Assembly (NCBI GenBank): GCA_903970355.1
Contig: CAJCIF010000517.1
Location: 1 to 13,801, forward strand
Direction of reading: 5' to 3'
Origin: Actinomycetota bacterium
Lineage (GTDB): Bacteria; Cyanobacteriota; Vampirovibrionia; Obscuribacterales; Obscuribacteraceae
DNA length: 13,801 nt
The translations under genes were made by a program, and so were the position numbers. Shown here piece by piece: positions 3,309 to 13,744 of this stretch (positions within the stretch are counted from its first letter, which is position 1; the number at the start of each line of letters is the position of its first letter). Below the pieces are notes generated by a model. That model was not told where the DNA came from, searched no databases, and was given only the letters and a program-made list of their open reading frames with translations.

Positions 3309-3404
3309 AGTAAACGTAAAACATACGATAACTAATTAAACAAATTCAGCGACTAAGGTGCCCCCGCGAAGGTGGAGGCTCTGACGGGCCGCAGGGAGGG
3401 ACTT

Positions 3405-4370
3405 ATGTTCGGAATTCAATACAAGAAGTCACCACCAACGGTGTACACGATGCACTTCGTAAATGGAGCCCTTAAGAAGGGAGGAGCTGGTCTCTCGTTC
3501 TTCTATTTCGCACCAACATCTACATTGGTACAAATTCCAGTTAACAGTGTTGACGTGCCATTCATTTTTCAAGAAGTCACACAAGACTTCCAAGCCCTGG
3601 CGTTGCAGGGGCAACTCACATATAGGGTTCTTGAGCCGGAAAAGCTCGCTCGCCTTATCGACTTTTCTATAAATACAAAAGGCGCGTACTCCAGTGTCAA
3701 AGACCCTCGGGATCTGGTTGCGACACGACTTGTAAACAGAACTCAAGCTCTTACCAAAGTCTTCGCACAGCAATTGACCTTGCACGAAGCACTTGGTGCA
3801 GCAGATAGAATTGCTGCTGGTTTGATTACGAGATTGCGCGTTGATGAAGCGGTCCAATTGTTAGGGTTGGAAATTCTATCCTTATCTATACAATCCATAA
3901 AGCCAACTCCGGAAACAGCTAAAGCTCTAGAAGCCGAGGCCCGAGAAGCGTTATTGCTACGAGCCGATCAAGCCATATACCTGCGTAGGAATTCTGCAGT
4001 GCAAGAAGAACGTCGCATTAGAGAGAGCGAACTGCAAACAGAAATTACCGTAGAAACTAAACGTCGAGAGATTCGCGAAACAAAGATGAAAGCAGATATC
4101 GCTCTAGAAGAAGAACGGGCTGCTCTGATCGAAAAGACGGTCGAAAACGAACGCAAAGAAGCAGACAGCAAAGCCTACGCTTTGCGTGCCACGTTGCAGC
4201 CGCTTAAAACAGCAAATTGGAAAACGTTGATGGCAATATCCGCCAGCGGTGACCCACGACTGGCAATTTCCCTGGCATTTGAAGAACTAGCATCCAATGC
4301 AGGTAAAATTGGTCAACTGAATGTCACTCCGGATCTGCTCAGCACTCTTCTAGCCGCACCAGGAAAATGA
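3405..4370 (+). CDS. SPFH/band-7 (prohibitin/stomatin-like) domain protein
   Basis: 321 residues from the ATG at 3405, chosen because AGGGAGGG (3393-3400) sits five bases upstream. An in-frame GTG at 3372 would add 11 residues without such a site. The N-terminal ~175 residues have SPFH pattern: short beta strands (TVYTMHFVNGALKKGG, TLVQIPVNSVDVPF), then LQGQLTYRVLEPEKLARLIDF, then helices ending in a strand IQSIKPTPETAKALEAEARE. A highly charged helix (~170-258, many Glu/Arg/Lys) should form the oligomerising coiled coil typical of flotillin/stomatin scaffolds. The C-terminal 60 residues look globular. No N-terminal membrane segment or signal peptide is visible, unlike classic stomatins, so membrane contact would be peripheral or absent. 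The stop overlaps the next ATG (ATGA), implying coupled translation with the NAD-kinase-like protein. Role inferred: oligomeric scaffold for that partner. Confidence 0.85.
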   Translation: MFGIQYKKSPPTVYTMHFVNGALKKGGAGLSFFYFAPTSTLVQIPVNSVDVPFIFQEVTQDFQALALQGQLTYRVLEPEKLARLIDFSINTKGAYSSVKDPRDLVATRLVNRTQALTKVFAQQLTLHEALGAADRIAAGLITRLRVDEAVQLLGLEILSLSIQSIKPTPETAKALEAEAREALLLRADQAIYLRRNSAVQEERRIRESELQTEITVETKRREIRETKMKADIALEEERAALIEKTVENERKEADSKAYALRATLQPLKTANWKTLMAISASGDPRLAISLAFEELASNAGKIGQLNVTPDLLSTLLAAPGK

Positions 4371-5314
4371 TCATGTACGAGAAGATAGTGGTAGTCAAAA
4401 GAAAAACACGACTGGAGGAATTGATCGAAAGATTCAGTACGCGCGAACAAGCAAAGTTTTACATCAATCATTCGGGTGGAAACTTTGAAGAATATGTGCA
4501 AGAGCACGATGCTTTCATGAGATCTTTCGACATCCTTCGCAGCACAGTAGACCTTGGACTGAAACTCCATGTAATAGATCGAGAATTCCTGCCCACATTT
4601 TTGTTCAGTCCAACTGATGTGGTGATTGTATTTGGGCAGGACGGTCTGGTGGCAAATACCGCAAAATATATAGGTGAGCAGCCGATTCTAGGAGTTAATC
4701 CGGATCCGACTCGCTACGATGGCATTCTGGTGCCGATTCTAGTACAAGCGCTGAAACAATGTTTGGAAGCTGTTCTTGCAAAAAAGGCAACGTGCAAAGC
4801 CGTAACGCTCGCCGAAGTTATCCTGAATGACGAACAAAAACTACTCGCCTTCAATGATCTTTTTATCGGTGCTAAAAGCCATATTTCGGCACGGTATCGC
4901 CTGCGTTATGAAGAGAAAGCAGAAGATCAATCTTCTAGCGGGTTGATTGTTTCCACCGGTGCGGGATCTACCGGCTGGCTTTCATCTCTCTTCAACATGG
5001 CTTCGCATGTAAATCGCCTGGTAGGGGCACCGGACATTCATGGAGTCACACTAGCCTGGGATTCCCCCGATCTCATGTTTGTAGTAAGAGAGCCTTTTAT
5101 AAGCAAGCATTCAACGGCTAATGTTGGCTCCGGCATAATACACTCCGGACAAGAGCTAATACTTGAATCACTCATGCCTTCCGAAGGCACTATATTCAGT
5201 GACGGCATTGAAAACGACTATCTTGCCTTCAACTCCGGCTCCACCGCTACCATCCGTGCTGCTAAGCAGAAAGCTCAGCTGATACTGCCAATACACAAAA
5301 ATGGAACCGCTTGA
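4367..5314 (+). CDS. NAD-kinase-like (PpnK superfamily) protein
   Basis: 315 residues. The ATG at 4367 overlaps the SPFH stop as ATGA; an ATG two codons later (4373) is possible. The order of family landmarks is kept. A VVIVFGQDG strand-loop (85-93) sits at the GGDG nucleotide-binding loop, with Gln for the second Gly. GVNPDPTRYDGIL (109-121) follows, then FNDLFIG (162-168) at the usual NE/ND position. GLIVSTGAGSTGW (192-204) matches the family's GLIVSTPTGSTAY-type loop, and SDG is at 278-280. The catalytic-loop Asp92 is kept. NAD kinases phosphorylate the 2'-OH of NAD using ATP or polyphosphate. The changed GGDG loop and the substituted PTGSTAY loop make the true substrate uncertain, and such members are sometimes annotated 'sugar kinase'. 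Soluble. Operon partner of the SPFH protein; a tRNA gene follows on the same strand. Confidence 0.75.
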   Translation: MIMYEKIVVVKRKTRLEELIERFSTREQAKFYINHSGGNFEEYVQEHDAFMRSFDILRSTVDLGLKLHVIDREFLPTFLFSPTDVVIVFGQDGLVANTAKYIGEQPILGVNPDPTRYDGILVPILVQALKQCLEAVLAKKATCKAVTLAEVILNDEQKLLAFNDLFIGAKSHISARYRLRYEEKAEDQSSSGLIVSTGAGSTGWLSSLFNMASHVNRLVGAPDIHGVTLAWDSPDLMFVVREPFISKHSTANVGSGIIHSGQELILESLMPSEGTIFSDGIENDYLAFNSGSTATIRAAKQKAQLILPIHKNGTA

Positions 5315-7355: not shown

Positions 7356-8318
7356 CTAGTCTTTTGCGGAGTTAGTTAAACCCGTACTTCTAACAGCAGC
7401 TTCTAGATCATCTCCTCTTAGATCGATACCACGGACAATGCCGTCAGGCCCGATTAAAGCTAGACCATAACCGTCTAAATTGAAACGCTCTTGAGTATCG
7501 CGAAAGCCGTTCGGCAAAAGAATGTTGGTCCATGCAACGCCTCTTTTGTTGAGCACCTTTGAATTTCCCTGCAATACTTCTTCTTTAGGCATACCGTATT
7601 CGAGATCCACACTTAGCATAAGCACTTCCAACTTTTCCGCACCGATCCTTTGCTGTATCCCCTTCACGAGGGGCATTTCTTCGATGCAGCTGTGTCACGT
7701 CATGCTCCAGACATCGAGTAAAAGAGATTTGCCCTTATAGTCCTCGAGCTTGATTTGTTTTCCGTCCGCCATGGTGAATGTGAATGGTGGGCAAGGTTTG
7801 CCCACTACCAAACCACTTAGTGGTGCGGAAGATTTGGACAGTAGAACCCAAGTAGAACCTGGATCAATTTTCTTTACCTCAAACATCTTGTCACCGAACC
7901 GAATAGGCATCGAAGAGAACCAGAGCTCAGTCCTTTCCAATTCGGAATTGTTGTTTGAATCTACACTTATAGCGGTGCTTGTATTCTCAAACGAATGGCT
8001 CTTCTTTGAGTTGACGGAGTAAGGACCGTATGCCGGCAAGTAGAAGATCACATCTTCACCGTCCGTATTCAATTCTCCTTTAACCATTTTTACGGGCTTG
8101 GGCTCTATAAAACTCGGATGACCGTTGGCATCGAACGTTATGTTAATGGTTCCAGGGCGCTCAATTTTGGTTGGTGACAGGTTGACTACAACTTCATTTT
8201 TGCCGGCTTTAGGCTGCGGTTGCGGAGGAACATAAACTTGTTTCTCTTGTTGTGCGCATGCAGTAGTGGCAAATATGTAAAAGGCGATGCAAGCTAGACG
8301 GTGCACTTTCATATTCAT
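7356..8318 (-). CDS. TlpA/ResA-like thioredoxin-fold lipoprotein; candidate selenoprotein with UGA-encoded Sec in a UxxC motif
   Basis: One reading frame of 320 residues is interrupted only by a TGA at 7697-7695 (codon 208). The N-terminus is a lipoprotein signal (hydrophobic CIAFYIFATTA, then Cys21). The start is 8318 or the second ATG at 8312, whose spacing to AGGGG is better (8 bases against 2). A ~150-residue beta-rich domain follows. Then comes the TlpA entry GKPCPPFTFTMADGKQIKLE and YKGKSLLLDVW, then S-M-T-[UGA]-H-S-C-I-E-E-M-P. TlpA proteins have W-x-x-W-C-x-x-C-x-x-E-M-P here, so the UGA sits exactly on the first redox Cys and Cys211 is the second. The fold continues in frame (EVLMLSVDLEYG, FNLDGYGLALIGPDG) to the end. 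The usual cis-Pro near GYG is missing. Expected role: extracytoplasmic thiol/selenol redox. A split call would give 7695-8318 and 7356-7676. The alternative is a single nonsense mutation in a recent pseudogene. Confidence 0.7.
7659..7673 (-). promoter_or_regulatory. SECIS-like hairpin downstream of the in-frame UGA
   Basis: In mRNA sense, CCCCU (7673-7669) pairs with AGGGG (7663-7659) around the loop CGUGA (7668-7664). The stem begins 21 nt after the UGA and the loop ~26 nt after it. Bacterial SECIS elements are in-frame hairpins just 3' of the UGA with a short apical loop bearing G (often GU) near its start, and this one agrees. A possible lower stem is GCUG with CAGC (7691-7688 and 7655-7652), across an unequal internal loop. 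Confidence 0.5.
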
Positions 8319-8422: not shown

Positions 8423-9100
8423 CTAAGTTCCAGGATCGAGTTGATAACCAACGCGGTGGACTGTTTTAATTACCGATGGATAGTCGGTGCTTTCCAACTT
8501 ACTGCGCAGTCGTGTAATGCAAACTCGTACTGTTTCTGGTGAGGCATCGGAATCGGAAGGCCAGAGGCGACCTAATAATGTATCGAGGCTGTAAATCTCT
8601 TTGGGATTGCGCAAAAAAAATTCGAATACCGCGAACTCCTGCGGCTGAAGTTTTATCTCTGCACCATTCCTGGTGACAAGCCGTGTAGTGGCATCAAGTT
8701 CTATATCTCTAATTTTGAGTACGCCACCATAGACGCGGCTTTGCCGGCGAACTATTGCTGCGACCCTGGCGGCAAGTTCCCTCAGGTGAAATGGCTTGGT
8801 GAGATAGTCATCTGCACCAATTCCTAATCCTGATTCTTTGTCTGTGATACTGTCCCTGGTTGTTAGCATTATTACCGGAGTTGTGCCGCCTGCATTGCGA
8901 AATTCAGTGAGAATTTCAATGCCATTGCGCTCTGGTAGGTTCCAATCAAGAAGAACCAGATCGAATTGAAAGAACTTGAGACGCTCTATGGCATCGAGAC
9001 CGCGCCCAGAAACTTCTACTTGATGATGCTCCAGTTCAAGCCAATCCTTTACTTGTTTGGCTAGCGTTGGATCATCTTCGACCAGCAGAATCTTTGCCAC
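8423..9100 (-). CDS. OmpR/PhoB-family two-component response regulator
   Basis: 225 residues from a GTG at 9100, giving the canonical start MAKILLVEDDP. The frame is open to a TTG at 9184, but that would overlap the upstream gene and add an unusual tail; the GTG leaves a 13-bp gap. Receiver domain (1-~118): acidic pocket Glu8-Asp9-Asp10, phospho-acceptor Asp52 (LVLLDWNLPE), Thr80 and Lys102 (YLTKPF), all intact. The C-terminal winged helix (about 128-225) has the family signatures LQPQEFAVFEFFLRNP, TLLGRLWP, ETVRVCITRLRSKL and IKTVHRVGYQL. It should bind DNA as a dimer at direct repeats. It is the last gene of the locus that starts with the two histidine kinases, and is their likely target. 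Its start has only a poor ribosome site, so translation may depend on the gene upstream. Confidence 0.93.
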   Translation of the reverse strand: MAKILLVEDDPTLAKQVKDWLELEHHQVEVSGRGLDAIERLKFFQFDLVLLDWNLPERNGIEILTEFRNAGGTTPVIMLTTRDSITDKESGLGIGADDYLTKPFHLRELAARVAAIVRRQSRVYGGVLKIRDIELDATTRLVTRNGAEIKLQPQEFAVFEFFLRNPKEIYSLDTLLGRLWPSDSDASPETVRVCITRLRSKLESTDYPSVIKTVHRVGYQLDPGT

Positions 9101-9113
9101 CTTACAACCGATA

Positions 9114-9440
9114 CTATTGAAACAAGCAGTCTGAGCTGTCGATGATAGCACGGCGTAAAAGCTTGTCCCTTGTAATTTCCCCAAAGAAGGATGCAGCGCA
9201 TCGAAGTTTTGCTGTCCACGCCTCTTGCTCGGACATGCTCATCTGATGCCATCCGGGGGGCACTGCTTCTTCATGTTTTGCTGTCCAAGCCTCTTGCTCA
9301 GACGAGGTCATAGTATGCCATCCGGGCGGCATGCAACCGGCGACTTGAACAGCGTCTAAATGATTCAGCCAATCTGGTTGTTCTTCGGACCGATGGTGGG
9401 TAGCCTCTGCTTGCGCATCGACTCGATTAATTTCTCTCAT
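9114..9440 (-). CDS. small protein with two tandem PPGWH...SEQEAWTAK repeats, function unknown
   Basis: 108 residues from the ATG at 9440, preceded by GGAGAGG at a 10-base spacing. An earlier in-frame TTG start (9467) is less likely. Two 19-residue copies at 37-55 and 60-78 share PPGWH-x-M-x-x-SEQEAWTAK with a 23-residue period; at DNA level this is a 69-bp imperfect direct repeat (about 9207-9264 and 9276-9333). The N-terminus is polar; the C-terminal ~28 residues (FFGEITRDKLLRRAIIDSS) look helical. No signal peptide or membrane segment. It lies 43 bp after the preceding small gene and 13 bp before the response regulator gene, so it is almost certainly in the same mRNA. Not recognised. Confidence 0.7.
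   Translation of the reverse strand: MREINRVDAQAEATHHRSEEQPDWLNHLDAVQVAGCMPPGWHTMTSSEQEAWTAKHEEAVPPGWHQMSMSEQEAWTAKLRCAASFFGEITRDKLLRRAIIDSSDCLFQ
9207..9333. repeat. 69-bp imperfect direct repeat inside the small PPGWH gene
   Basis: The ~58-bp blocks starting TTTTGCTGTCC at 9207 and 9276 are nearly the same and end in GCCATCCGGG-x-GGCA. The period of 69 bp equals 23 codons, so the duplication keeps the frame. The two copies differ at several positions, so the duplication is not very recent. Confidence 0.75.
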
Positions 9441-10475: not shown

Positions 10476-12269
10476 TCAACTTTTCTTTTGCTTCTGATCG
10501 AATGGAAGGCGAAACCAGAAGGTAGTACCTTTTTCCGTTCCATTCTTAATCCCGATGGTACCGTGGTGGGCTTGCACAATCATCCGGCAAATCGAGAGTC
10601 CCAGACCACTGCCTGCCAGTTTTGATGACTCAGTAAAAGATGATTGATCGAAGGCGGCAAATATCCTTTCTCGATCTTCTTCCGGTATGCCGGCGCCTTC
10701 ATCGGTAACTTCGATCTCCACCGCATCTTTGTCTTGCTTGCAACATACTGCCAGCTTGCTGTTATCCGGAGAAAACTTAATTCCGTTGGAGAGCAAGTTG
10801 ATGATTACCTGCCTTATTTTTGCTGCGTCACATTGAATAAATGCATCCTCTTCTCCAACTTCAATTGTAATTCCGTGACGCTTTGCGAACCCATCTACCA
10901 TTTGAGCTGATTCGGCTATCAAGTTTTTTACACGGCATTCAGTGAATTTCAAATTGAGCTTGCCACCCTGGATTTTTTCGAAATCCAGTAAATCGTCCAC
11001 CAAGAAAATGAGGCGATTACAGTTTTGCTCGGCACTCGATAGTTCCTGCAAGGCGGCTTCTGAAATATCATCATGAGCAGTCTCGGTCAAAAGTTTTATT
11101 TGATCCAGAATGGCTGTAAGAGGACTGCGTAAGTCGCTGCTGATCATGCTTATAAATTGTTCTTTGAGTCTGTCAAGGTTTTTCTGCTGGGTAACATCGT
11201 GAATGACACAGAAAACTTTCTGATCTCGTTCGGACCAATATGCGGAACAACGAACATCAACGCAGTGTCCATTCTTGGCAATGAGCTGAGTCTCAAAGTT
11301 TTGAGTGGCCCCATCCAAATTAAAGTGGATTTCACCCTTTGCAATTTCGGAAATGGACTTACCAACAAGCTCCTCTTCTTTATATCCAAGAAGGTTTTCC
11401 GAAAACGGATTGATCTTTTCGATTCTACCTTCGCGATTGAGAGAACAGATAACATCCGCTGCATTGTTCACCAGGGCAACTTGGCTGGCAAGAGCTTGTC
11501 CGACAGATTGGTCTACTTCGTGAAAATGTCTGTCCAAATTTGCAAACTCATCATCTCCATCCAACTCCGGCAAGAGCGGCTGACGATTTGACAGACGCCG
11601 GGCATTTTCCGCAAGACGAGACATGGGAACGCTAATATTCGCCCCGTAAAGTTTCGCCAAACCAAGAGCTAATGCACAACTAAAAATGAGAGCGAAAAGA
11701 AGAACCGCTTTCATAGAATTGCGCCATTCTTCTTTTCCAAATGGGCTAGCGTTCACTTTTCGCATTTCTATATCAGCAATTTTTTCGGCCTCCACCATGT
11801 ACTTTTGCCCTATAAGAGCGCCTTTGTACTGAATGAGAACGCGACCGGGGTTGGGCACATCCTGAAGACGAGCTTCTACTCCTTGTTTAATCACCTCGCA
11901 GAATTCCGTCGAGTAATCAACCAACTTGTCTGCAGATTTCTTTACCTGAGAATCGTTCTCTTGCGAAGCTAGTTCCTGCACTTCTCGCGCTTCCCCGATA
12001 AATTTGTCGAGCGATTGTTGGAGCGCTTCGCCTTGCGGAAATTCATGGGGACGAGTAGGTTTTATGATGTCGGAGAGCGCATTTCCGCACATGGCGGTAA
12101 GATCCTGAGACAGGCCAATTATGTTTTTGGTTCGTTCTTCCTTTACGGATTCATCATTTTCCGATCTCAGGAGGAAAGTAAGCGAGGCCATAAGGATAAG
12201 CTGGCAGACCAGAGGTAGCGCTACAAGGATGATTCCTCTCGTTTGCAAATTTAGATGTCTGGCAATCAT
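10476..12269 (-). CDS. PAS-domain sensor histidine kinase with intact ATPase domain but Ser in place of the phospho-acceptor His
   Basis: 597 residues. The ATG at 12269 overlaps the upstream kinase stop as ATGA, with AAGGA nine bases upstream. Order: membrane helix (12-34), extracytoplasmic sensor (~35-185), membrane helix (~187-207), HAMP linker (~208-256), PAS domain (~260-360, with CSLNREGRIEKINP and VFCVIHDVTQQK), HisKA (~366-435) and HATPase (~475-595). The ATPase boxes are complete: N box NLLSNGIKFS (491-500), G1 DEGAGI (523-528), F box IFAAFDQ and G2 GSGLGLSI (553-560). In HisKA the normal S-H-D-L-R-x-P-L reads S-S-D-L-R-S-P-L: Ser378 (codon AGC) stands where His should be, so it cannot autophosphorylate on His. 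The adjacent kinase has the opposite defect, suggesting heterodimer action in trans. Confidence 0.9.
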   Translation of the reverse strand: MIARHLNLQTRGIILVALPLVCQLILMASLTFLLRSENDESVKEERTKNIIGLSQDLTAMCGNALSDIIKPTRPHEFPQGEALQQSLDKFIGEAREVQELASQENDSQVKKSADKLVDYSTEFCEVIKQGVEARLQDVPNPGRVLIQYKGALIGQKYMVEAEKIADIEMRKVNASPFGKEEWRNSMKAVLLFALIFSCALALGLAKLYGANISVPMSRLAENARRLSNRQPLLPELDGDDEFANLDRHFHEVDQSVGQALASQVALVNNAADVICSLNREGRIEKINPFSENLLGYKEEELVGKSISEIAKGEIHFNLDGATQNFETQLIAKNGHCVDVRCSAYWSERDQKVFCVIHDVTQQKNLDRLKEQFISMISSDLRSPLTAILDQIKLLTETAHDDISEAALQELSSAEQNCNRLIFLVDDLLDFEKIQGGKLNLKFTECRVKNLIAESAQMVDGFAKRHGITIEVGEEDAFIQCDAAKIRQVIINLLSNGIKFSPDNSKLAVCCKQDKDAVEIEVTDEGAGIPEEDRERIFAAFDQSSFTESSKLAGSGLGLSICRMIVQAHHGTIGIKNGTEKGTTFWFRLPFDQKQKKS

Positions 12270-13744
12270 GCGCTTTTATCCTTGTCTTCGAAAACAGGGA
12301 TACTCATCCAGAATGCACTGCCATCATTCATTTCACTGGTTTCGCCAATGGTGCCACCATGTGCTTCTGCAATTGCATTTACGAATGCCATACTTAAGCT
12401 TGCACCGTCGGCAGATTCAGACACGGCAGATCCCTGCTTTCGAATTTTGATTTCAACCATCTGTCCGAGAGATTTGATAGACATTTCTACAGAGGAATTT
12501 TCTCTGGAAGTAATTATGGCTTTGGAAAGCAGATGGGTCATTGCTTGAATAAGGCGCTCTTCATCACCACGGATTAGTGCATCTCCCGATGGCTTCTTGA
12601 CTGTAACTTTAGATTTTGCCGCCAATGCTTCAAGTGAATCGGCGGCAGCAGAGCAGACGTCCAGCGCGCTGACACCTGAGAATTTCAAGGTAATACTGCC
12701 TGATTCGAGCTTTTCAAGATCCAATAGCTCACGGATAAGATCCATTAGTCTGTTCACATTGCCTTCCGCTTCCGCAAGAATATCCTCAGTATTTTTCTGA
12801 AGAGCACCACGTGCTCCGGAATGAAGCAACGACAAGCTACTGGAAATAGAGGTGAGTGGCGTTCTGATATCGTGTCCTGCAACAGCGACAAACCGTTGTT
12901 TCATGCGGTCCAAGCTGCGCTGCTGCGTTATATCGTGTGCTACGCAGTAAAATGCTTGATTTTCCGTCGACCAACGAACAGACCAGAGGGTGTCTTTTGC
13001 ATCTCCTGTCTTGCTTTTGACAGTGTTTTCTATTTCTGCTGACTCGCCTGACTTCATAAGTTTTTCCAAACTGCTTCGTGTTTCATCAAGCGTTCGACGG
13101 TCTACCAGGAATGAGATTGGCTGTCCCAATAGTTCTTCCGGCGAATAATTCCAAAGCTTGTGCGTAGCTTGATTGAGAGCAACGAATCGCATTCGTTTAT
13201 CGATAGAAGCGACTACATCTGCAACATTGTCGACCACTGCTAATTCTTTTCTGCGGGTGTCCGCAAGAATCTCGGCAGATTCATGAAGAACCGAGTCCAG
13301 TGCTGAAAATTCATCATTGCCGGCAAGCTGTGGTGGTAATGGTTTTTCAAGAGCCATGAGATCGAATTTGTTTTCTATTGACTTAAGCCGATCTACAAAC
13401 TCACGTGTGAAGAAACGGACGAGAACGAAAGAGAACAAAATTCCGAGTGATACTAATACGGACATTAAGATCTCAATTCGTCTCGTGAGGCTTTCGCGCT
13501 CTTTTGGTGCAAGAGCTCTTACATCATTCGCTACCTTTAGAACTTTCCGCTCGAGTTGAGCAAGTTCCATAAAAATCAAGTAAGCGTCCCCGCGAATATA
13601 CATGACGCGCTTTCTGGGGAGGATATTAGGATTTGCGTATATTTCATCTATTTTGAAAGTCAGTCTGTTGCAACGTTCATAGAGGTCTTGCCCAAGCAGA
13701 GCGCATTCGTTTAAGTCAGCCCAATTGCCTGAGTAGCCGCGCAA
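12266..13744 (-). CDS. PAS-domain histidine kinase with intact phospho-acceptor His but degenerate ATPase domain; 5' end unresolved
   Basis: 492 residues are readable from a TTG at 13744, just after an in-frame TGA (13753-13751). The first sensor helix is absent, so the true start is upstream and a frameshift or sequence error is likely (another frame is open from the window edge to 13714). Order: sensor remnant, membrane helix (~92-110), HAMP-like linker, PAS (~168-275), HisKA with AGHDIRTPLTSI (His291 intact), then a HATPase-like domain. The latter is degenerate: the N box reads HLLSKAIITS (Lys408 for the metal-binding Asn), G1 reads RKQGSA (Asp replaced by Lys), G2 reads GASLSM (two Gly replaced by Ser), and ~20 lid residues are missing. 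ATP binding is improbable. The end of the domain (AHGGTIGETS...GSAFWMSIP) is preserved. It can be a phospho-acceptor but not a donor, complementing the overlapping downstream kinase. Confidence 0.82.
   Translation of the reverse strand: MRGYSGNWADLNECALLGQDLYERCNRLTFKIDEIYANPNILPRKRVMYIRGDAYLIFMELAQLERKVLKVANDVRALAPKERESLTRRIEILMSVLVSLGILFSFVLVRFFTREFVDRLKSIENKFDLMALEKPLPPQLAGNDEFSALDSVLHESAEILADTRRKELAVVDNVADVVASIDKRMRFVALNQATHKLWNYSPEELLGQPISFLVDRRTLDETRSSLEKLMKSGESAEIENTVKSKTGDAKDTLWSVRWSTENQAFYCVAHDITQQRSLDRMKQRFVAVAGHDIRTPLTSISSSLSLLHSGARGALQKNTEDILAEAEGNVNRLMDLIRELLDLEKLESGSITLKFSGVSALDVCSAAADSLEALAAKSKVTVKKPSGDALIRGDEERLIQAMTHLLSKAIITSRENSSVEMSIKSLGQMVEIKIRKQGSAVSESADGASLSMAFVNAIAEAHGGTIGETSEMNDGSAFWMSIPVFEDKDKSA

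Follow-up and report, generated by a model that had tools for sequence, protein, structure and literature searches.

Complementary loss of the phospho-acceptor histidine and the ATPase site in overlapping sensor kinase genes of an Obscuribacteraceae genome and its relatives

The DNA studied here, referred to as the window, is a stretch of 13,801 nucleotides that makes up one entire contig (C517; GenBank CAJCIF010000517.1) of an Obscuribacteraceae genome (G000) that is 65.7% complete. It carries two overlapping genes for histidine kinases, designated U (upstream) and D (downstream), with complementary defects. U has the phospho-acceptor histidine, His291, and a degenerate ATPase domain, and D has a complete ATPase domain and Ser378 at the position of the histidine. 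Neither chain combines the histidine with all of the ATP-binding boxes, and only the two proteins together possess the full set. Judged by sequence, this is a split kinase, with the His on one protein and the ATPase on its partner. By far the best reading is that U and D very probably form an obligate heterodimer, and we consider it highly probable that they are two subunits of one histidine kinase in which D phosphorylates His291 of U in trans. Related tandem pairs and natural single-chain fusions have lost the same functions reciprocally, repeatedly and in both polarities, and half-way forms were found as well.

A sequence-only reading had described this locus, and its coordinates, strands and 4-base ATGA overlap are all correct (Table 1). 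The motifs it reported were likewise recovered. U has AGHDIRTPL with His291 and defective N, G1 and G2 boxes; in addition its F box and most of its ATP lid are deleted immediately before G2, leaving a lid that was correctly called short and that aligns as 4 residues against 13 in most relatives. D has complete N, G1, F and G2 boxes together with Ser378. The PAS-HisKA-HATPase plan attributed to both proteins was found by Pfam, with 54.7 bits for HisKA and 30.4 bits for HATPase_c in U and 42.9 and 102.2 bits in D, all above the curated cut-offs of 26.9 and 26.4 bits, respectively. No Pfam family of Hpt, CheA dimerisation or CheW-like domains was detected in U or D up to an E value of 10. The predicted fold of U (predicted local distance difference test score, pLDDT, 84; predicted template modelling score, pTM, 0.50) keeps the dimerisation and histidine phosphotransfer (DHp) hairpin and the GHKL elements, with a low-confidence gap at the position of the lid. 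Most aligned relatives have about 600 residues, including a hydrophobic stretch at the N-terminal end; roughly the first 95 residues are absent from U. The last 57 bases of the contig hold three in-frame stops before the TTG, another frame is open there, and no overlap of this end with other contigs of the same genome was found. The TTG at 13744 cannot be trusted as the start of U, whose catalytic part is unaffected.

Genomes of the family hold many tandem kinases with the same overlap as U and D. We compared 52 U-D pairs from 15 genomes of this one family, in which both cores were readable and copies more than 97% identical had been removed; the count leaves out 40 adjacent pairs truncated by a locus end and 10 cases in which the D of one pair adjoins the U of the next. 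Four of the 52 pairs (L127, L137, the first pair of L180, and L181) have a U that a locus or contig end shortens but whose core is readable, as does the window. Cores were scored with a hidden Markov model (HMM) built from 70 of these kinases, which cores too decayed for the model would escape, and the ATPase was called lost when at least one of four features was missing (N-box Asn, G1 Asp, G1 GxG, G2 GxG). Both partners were intact in 39 pairs. Five pairs combined a U with His and a lost ATPase with a D without His and with an intact ATPase, eight showed the reverse, and no pair fell into any other class (Fisher tests, P = 3.8e-7 and 1.3e-9, uncorrected for kinship). The sequence-only reading had proposed to test whether His loss and ATPase loss always coincide in partners, and they do so in 13 of 13 defective pairs. 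The same reading had named relatives with both functions in each partner as evidence against it, on the ground that the defects could then be sequence errors. Such relatives exist, 39 of the 52 pairs; we read them as the intact background of the losses, and recurrence over several genomes is unlike sequencing error.

Both polarities are present in the window genome itself. On its contig C50 (L050), U carries VGSDLKSSL alongside a full ATP site, and D carries ISHDLKAPL, after which the protein ends; no ATPase remnant was found in the 1,400 bases searched behind D (best E 0.17). The other seven reverse pairs form a clade (L077, L157, L167, L172 twice, L175, and L179 with L183) in which U has Asp, Glu or Gln for His and D has SLLK[YFL]SICK in place of G2. 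In the window polarity, L155, L187 and L188, a clade from three genomes, have ISDELRSPL in D and a U with G1 broken in all three and G2 in two. L137 is the fifth pair of this polarity, and its placement in the family, on a long branch, is less sure. Separate genes near the lineage of the fused protein P0113 described below (L212) show the same His/ATPase split.

In a midpoint-rooted FastTree tree of catalytic cores, covering the first 41 loci and read without support values, the U and D cores are sister clades, and the window pair belongs to this tandem family by its sister-clade cores and overlapping genes. Because upstream and downstream partners form sister clades, the U-D pair seems to stem from one duplication. 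Together with the pair comparison, this supports the suggestion of the sequence-only reading that a duplication was followed by reciprocal loss. At E 1e-60, U had no match in any of 24 genomes outside the family. Arrays of two consecutive U-D pairs occur at L071 (G030:C18), L072 (G012:C1), L158 and L172, and at L158 five kinases lie side by side in the order D-U-D-U-D; neighbouring pairs in such arrays could exchange partners. Complementation between different pairs of a genome was considered and is unneeded, every pair complementing itself. An intact U (L117) and a His-less D (L173) of one genome were compared as candidate partners, and their contig ends do not overlap.

The split also occurs within single chains. 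In the metagenome protein P0113 the first core has no His and a full ATP site, and the second has the His and no ATP site. A search with P0113, taken to the best 120 of 785 matches, gave a large class of such proteins. The count covers 68 double-core proteins, to the exclusion of P0249, which is reciprocal and aligned in three HMM pieces. Forty-five of the 68 have a His-less first half with ATPase and a His-bearing second half without it, 22 are intact and one (P0224) is half-way, proportions that are not population frequencies given that P0113 is itself reciprocal. Seven of the 22 intact proteins are a distant clade of kinases outside this group. The sole loss in P0224 is that of the first His. 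A search of 50 family genomes with P0228 identified 27 places in 9 genomes, one of them cut by a contig end; the remaining 26 encode two cores and comprise 19 reciprocal, 5 intact and 2 half-way cases, a set that overlaps the metagenome proteins and is not independent of them. The second ATPase domain was unaligned by the HMM in L284, L294 and L295 and aligned in pieces in L282, and all four were scored as lost. In L277 (G015:C290) the first ATP site is damaged, and the second half keeps its His with Gly for the adjacent acidic residue (VSHGMRTPL), which is perhaps another way of silencing the His. A model of P0113 (pLDDT 79.5, pTM 0.56) aligns over residues 259 to 1006 with a chain of 4i5s at 2.7 A in one row of the structural comparison. 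This is a weak hint that the domains of the two halves may pack like one kinase, and we place no weight on it. At L084 (G020:C2:17000-36000) lies a row of three fused double kinases, all intact and 1250-1314 residues in length, nearly abutting or overlapping, which together hold six kinase cores within about 11.4 kb.

Changes of state were counted on quick trees from alignments stripped of the trait columns. Among U-D pairs the best tree needs five. A tree of fused and other pairs, to which five U-D rows were added, has three changes to the polarity with a His-less first partner, forced by starred branches. Over both polarities this gives at least four origins, and about seven on the best trees, assuming no regain of lost functions. 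On these trees the same reciprocal loss arose more than once among the relatives.

The two kinds of subunit also differ outside the missing residues. The residue four positions after the His (His+4) belongs to a phosphatase motif (PMC3591291, in the part of that paper available). Across 59 reciprocal pairs, 57 of the 59 halves that bear the His have Thr or Ser there, as do 22 of the 59 that lack it, compared with 131 of 148 intact ones. Within the reciprocal fused proteins, conservation is stronger in the His half for the H box and the next helix, and stronger in the ATP half for the N, G1, F and G2 boxes. Since His+4 and H-box conservation favour the His halves, contact with the response regulator has probably shifted to the His subunit. 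In fused proteins and in the L155 group, the degenerate ATPase domain evolves more quickly than its intact counterpart. It is usually retained, as in the window U, and L050 shows that complete loss is possible. Estimates of dN/dS (the ratio of nonsynonymous to synonymous substitution rates) are mostly uninformative, synonymous sites being saturated.

Among 649 unique full cores, 66 lack the His, all of them with 4 of 4 ATP features, 68 keep the His and miss at least one ATP feature, and none lacks both. Solitary kinases in the family genomes are intact in 48 of 49 cases, and the remaining one (L179) is separated from its partner by a contig break; the full-core filter concealed no solitary kinase of these genomes. 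A collection of genome contigs gave no match when scanned with U alone; scanned with the U alignment it gave 530 loci, of which 80 were kept as the source of L212 and of controls. Of the solitary full-core kinases at these loci, 66 of 68 are intact, two miss one feature and none is His-less. Five further solitary kinases there were concealed by the full-core filter, one of them without a recognisable ATPase domain.

These patterns suggest the following mechanism. U and D would pair through their DHp helices, and the ATPase domain of D would phosphorylate His291 of U in trans. U would pass the phosphoryl group to a response regulator and would probably dephosphorylate it too. Homodimers of U or of D would be inactive, and activity would consequently require both subunits. 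The sensor could then act as an AND gate of two input modules, both of which are present in the sequence. After duplication, an intact heterodimer would have lost one His, and the partner's ATPase, made useless by that loss, would have decayed, or the two losses would have come in the reverse order. In a kinase phosphorylating itself in cis, loss of the His would leave the chain's own ATPase without use and expected to decay, and the opposite is seen. The His-less chain keeps its ATPase and the partner's decays, as would follow if each ATPase serves the partner's His in the U-D dimer. The half-way forms P0224 and L277 fit such a stepwise path, in which a first one-sided loss precedes the decay of the idle domain.

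Several observations weigh against this reading. In L231, an adjacent pair unrelated to these, the ATPase is defective on one side only. The loss called in U of L155 rests on one feature of four (the second Gly of G1), and that called in D of L077, L157, L167, L175 and L183 rests on G2, with the F box. P0224 (matching L286) and L277 break strict reciprocity, even as they fit as intermediates. The counts come from related sequences, and an independent-contrast test had too few events to reach significance: starred branches gave one contrast for each polarity, and all branches together gave 2 and 3. The window row and L137 are long branches, and the window joins another long branch; event counts among U-D pairs are therefore soft, and the starred branches of the quick tree are less safe with long rows. 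The acidic residue at +1 does not separate the halves, being kept in 59 of 59 His-bearing and 50 of 59 His-less ones, and in the L077 group the degenerate ATPase domain is not faster than the intact one. Finally, some defective cores have no visible partner: five are His-less (L173, P0109, P0146, P0290, P0309), nine are ATPase-poor (P0058, P0070, P0121, P0128, P0178, P0198, L194, L223, L248), and two have HisKA without a full ATPase domain (P0039, P0084). The genomic context of P0146, P0178 and P0113 was sought in the 50 family genomes with no match at the thresholds used, and P0128 gave relatives at 35-38% only.

DivL is a HisKA-HATPase protein that lacks the phospho-acceptor His. D shares this feature through Ser378, and its tandem partner U is itself an incomplete kinase, so that any complete kinase regulated by D would be another one of the cell. 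One partner might, as in DivL, be a pseudokinase that tunes the other allosterically with no sharing of the active site. DivL and RetS do act on other kinases, according to the accessible text of PMC12189002 (for DivL also PMC9491836), and the U model matches the structures of DivL (4q20) and RetS/GacS (7n0e), among many ordinary kinases. However, neither U nor D is complete, so there is no whole kinase to tune; His-less cores keep full ATP features in 66 of 66 cases, and the partner's defect is complementary in 13 of 13 defective U-D pairs. We regard this explanation as quite unlikely. It is very unlikely that the His partner is a phosphotransfer-like protein fed by other kinases, the ATPase partner phosphorylating a different kinase and the genes being mere neighbours. 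Cross-talk is conceivable in a kinase-rich genome, with 48 matches to U (U itself included) at 65.7% completeness, yet the two defects are linked by their complementarity within pairs, by the 4-base overlap that 40 of 52 pairs show, and by the fusions.

That the defects reflect sequencing error, assembly artefact or decaying pseudogenes is hardly credible. In its favour, neither the contig end nor the start of U is reliable, and the degenerate domain changes faster in fused proteins and the L155 group, with, for example, a dN of 0.38 and 0.36 against 0.10 for the intact one (L269-L270 and L269-L271). Against this, frames are open throughout the catalytic parts, the same states are seen again in metagenome proteins and in several assemblies, several species share replacement motifs such as SLLK[YFL]SICK, and dN/dS is 0.08 to 0.18 for degenerate domains in the three comparisons in which it was estimable, dS being otherwise saturated. 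For the catalytic parts, error and pseudogenisation were both rejected.

The proposed trans-phosphorylating heterodimer has partial precedents. In the text available, split kinases comprise an established case, CheA3/CheA4 of Rhodobacter sphaeroides, and a proposed one, Hik36-Hik43, both CheA-type (PMC3591291, PMC7656254). Neither CheA3 nor CheA4 autophosphorylates alone, a mixture labels CheA3, and CheA3 is also a phosphatase (PMC3591291). As in U and D, phospho-acceptor and ATPase are divided between two proteins; however, the architecture is that of CheA, CheA3 being without P3 and P4 and CheA4 without P1 (PMC3591291), whereas U and D are both full-size HisKA-type membrane sensor kinases. 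In contrast to CheA3/CheA4, partners in the U-D family mostly keep both domains with one degenerate, and the split is recurrent, with either polarity and within single chains as well. The cyanobacterial split kinase Hik36-Hik43 (PilL-N/PilL-C of Synechocystis), with a reported two-hybrid interaction, is a cheA homologue divided into an Hpt part and a DIM/CA/CheW-interaction/REC part at distant loci (PMC7656254), unlike U and D, which are a pair of duplicated sensors.

A SMART survey counted 1556 of 42417 HisKA proteins without a recognisable HATPase domain as possible split kinases (PMC3591291). D of L050 would belong to this set; the survey, as far as its available description goes, is a domain count without partners, reciprocity or point losses of the His. 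The pseudokinase ChrS with HrrS, and RetS with GacS, resemble the proposed U-D pairing in that paralogous or related kinases interact, one being impaired or inhibitory (PMC9491836, PMC12189002); the other partner, however, remains a complete kinase, and no reciprocal loss is described in the accessible parts of these papers. DivL of Caulobacter, whose structure is among the fold matches of the U model, differs in acting on the kinase CckA, and the part of PMC9491836 at hand states that it does not need its ATPase domain. Mycobacterium Rv0600c/Rv0601c was considered as a further split kinase and was left unused, the source in its available part saying only that both cooperate with TcrA. In the literature searched, which covered few subscription papers, no reciprocal HisKA-type tandem pair and no both-polarity or single-chain version was described. 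Split kinases are already known; within that literature the HisKA-type, recurrent, both-polarity and single-chain forms were not encountered.

Evolution has apparently run a complementation experiment several times in these kinases, with the ATPase of the His-less chain staying and, with few exceptions, that of its partner going. The usual view of histidine kinases is that of homodimers, whose cis or trans mode of phosphorylation is established at the bench for each kinase separately. For this lineage we lean slightly towards a broader view, in which duplicated HisKA kinases are obligate heterodimers even when intact, a ratchet repeatedly splits them into His and ATPase subunits in either direction, including single-chain pseudo-dimers, and the direction of decay records trans-autophosphorylation. 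If so, the cis or trans mode could be read from sequence through the direction of decay. The small, defined pairs and the single-chain fusions make trans phosphorylation and obligate pairing directly testable, and they put two-input sensors on offer for engineering. They are also a clear case of an increase in complexity via complementary loss following duplication.

Table 1. Position of the two kinase genes, their catalytic motifs and the nearby regulator gene in the window.
Feature	Position	Strand	Remarks
Upstream kinase U	12266..13744	minus	membrane segment (by eye), PAS, HisKA with His291, degenerate HATPase_c
Downstream kinase D	10476..12269	minus	two membrane segments (by eye), PAS, His-less HisKA, complete HATPase_c
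ATGA overlap of U stop and D start	12266..12269	minus	4 bases; gap of -4 in 40/52 U-D pairs
U His291 codon	12872..12874	minus	phospho-acceptor, motif AGHDIRTPL
U degenerate N box	12506..12535	minus	HLLSKAIITS, residue 404; Asn replaced by Lys
U degenerate G1 box	12425..12442	minus	RKQGSA, residue 435; Asp replaced by Lys, second Gly gone
U degenerate G2 box	12389..12406	minus	GASLSM, residue 447; GxG gone
D Ser378 codon	11136..11138	minus	at phospho-acceptor His position, motif ISSDLRSPL
D intact N box	10770..10799	minus	NLLSNGIKFS
D intact G1 box	10683..10703	minus	DEGAGIP
D intact F box	10650..10664	minus	IFAAF
D intact G2 box	10590..10613	minus	GSGLGLSI
OmpR-type response regulator	8423..9184	minus	Response_reg and Trans_reg_C; 1.3 kb downstream of the pair

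The OmpR-type regulator of the window is a possible target of the U/D pair. Such a regulator was found in the searched stretch of 10 of 51 U-D pairs and touches the pair in six; many stretches had short flanks, and absence carries little weight. At L050 the order is regulator-U-D, with the regulator overlapping the start of U; at L160 and L171 the regulator is again upstream, 5 bases away; and at L082, L161 and L163 it faces the end of D in convergent orientation. Beside fused kinases a regulator-like gene was seen only at L277 and L286, within flanks of about 1.5 kb.

Two further places in the window were noted. At 3372-5314 (plus strand), a band-7/SPFH protein has a 4-base overlap with a gene whose NAD kinase match of 13.6 bits is below the cut-off of 25.5. 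A thioredoxin/TlpA-like gene (7356-8318, minus strand) contains an in-frame TGA at 7695-7697 in the context VWSMT*HSCIEEMP, at what we take to be the first Cys of the CxxC motif. A gene from another genus (L312, G006), 51% identical to it, has TGA at the same place, and the window genome contains a SelA match. The 7356-8318 gene is likely to encode a selenoprotein with a UxxC motif.

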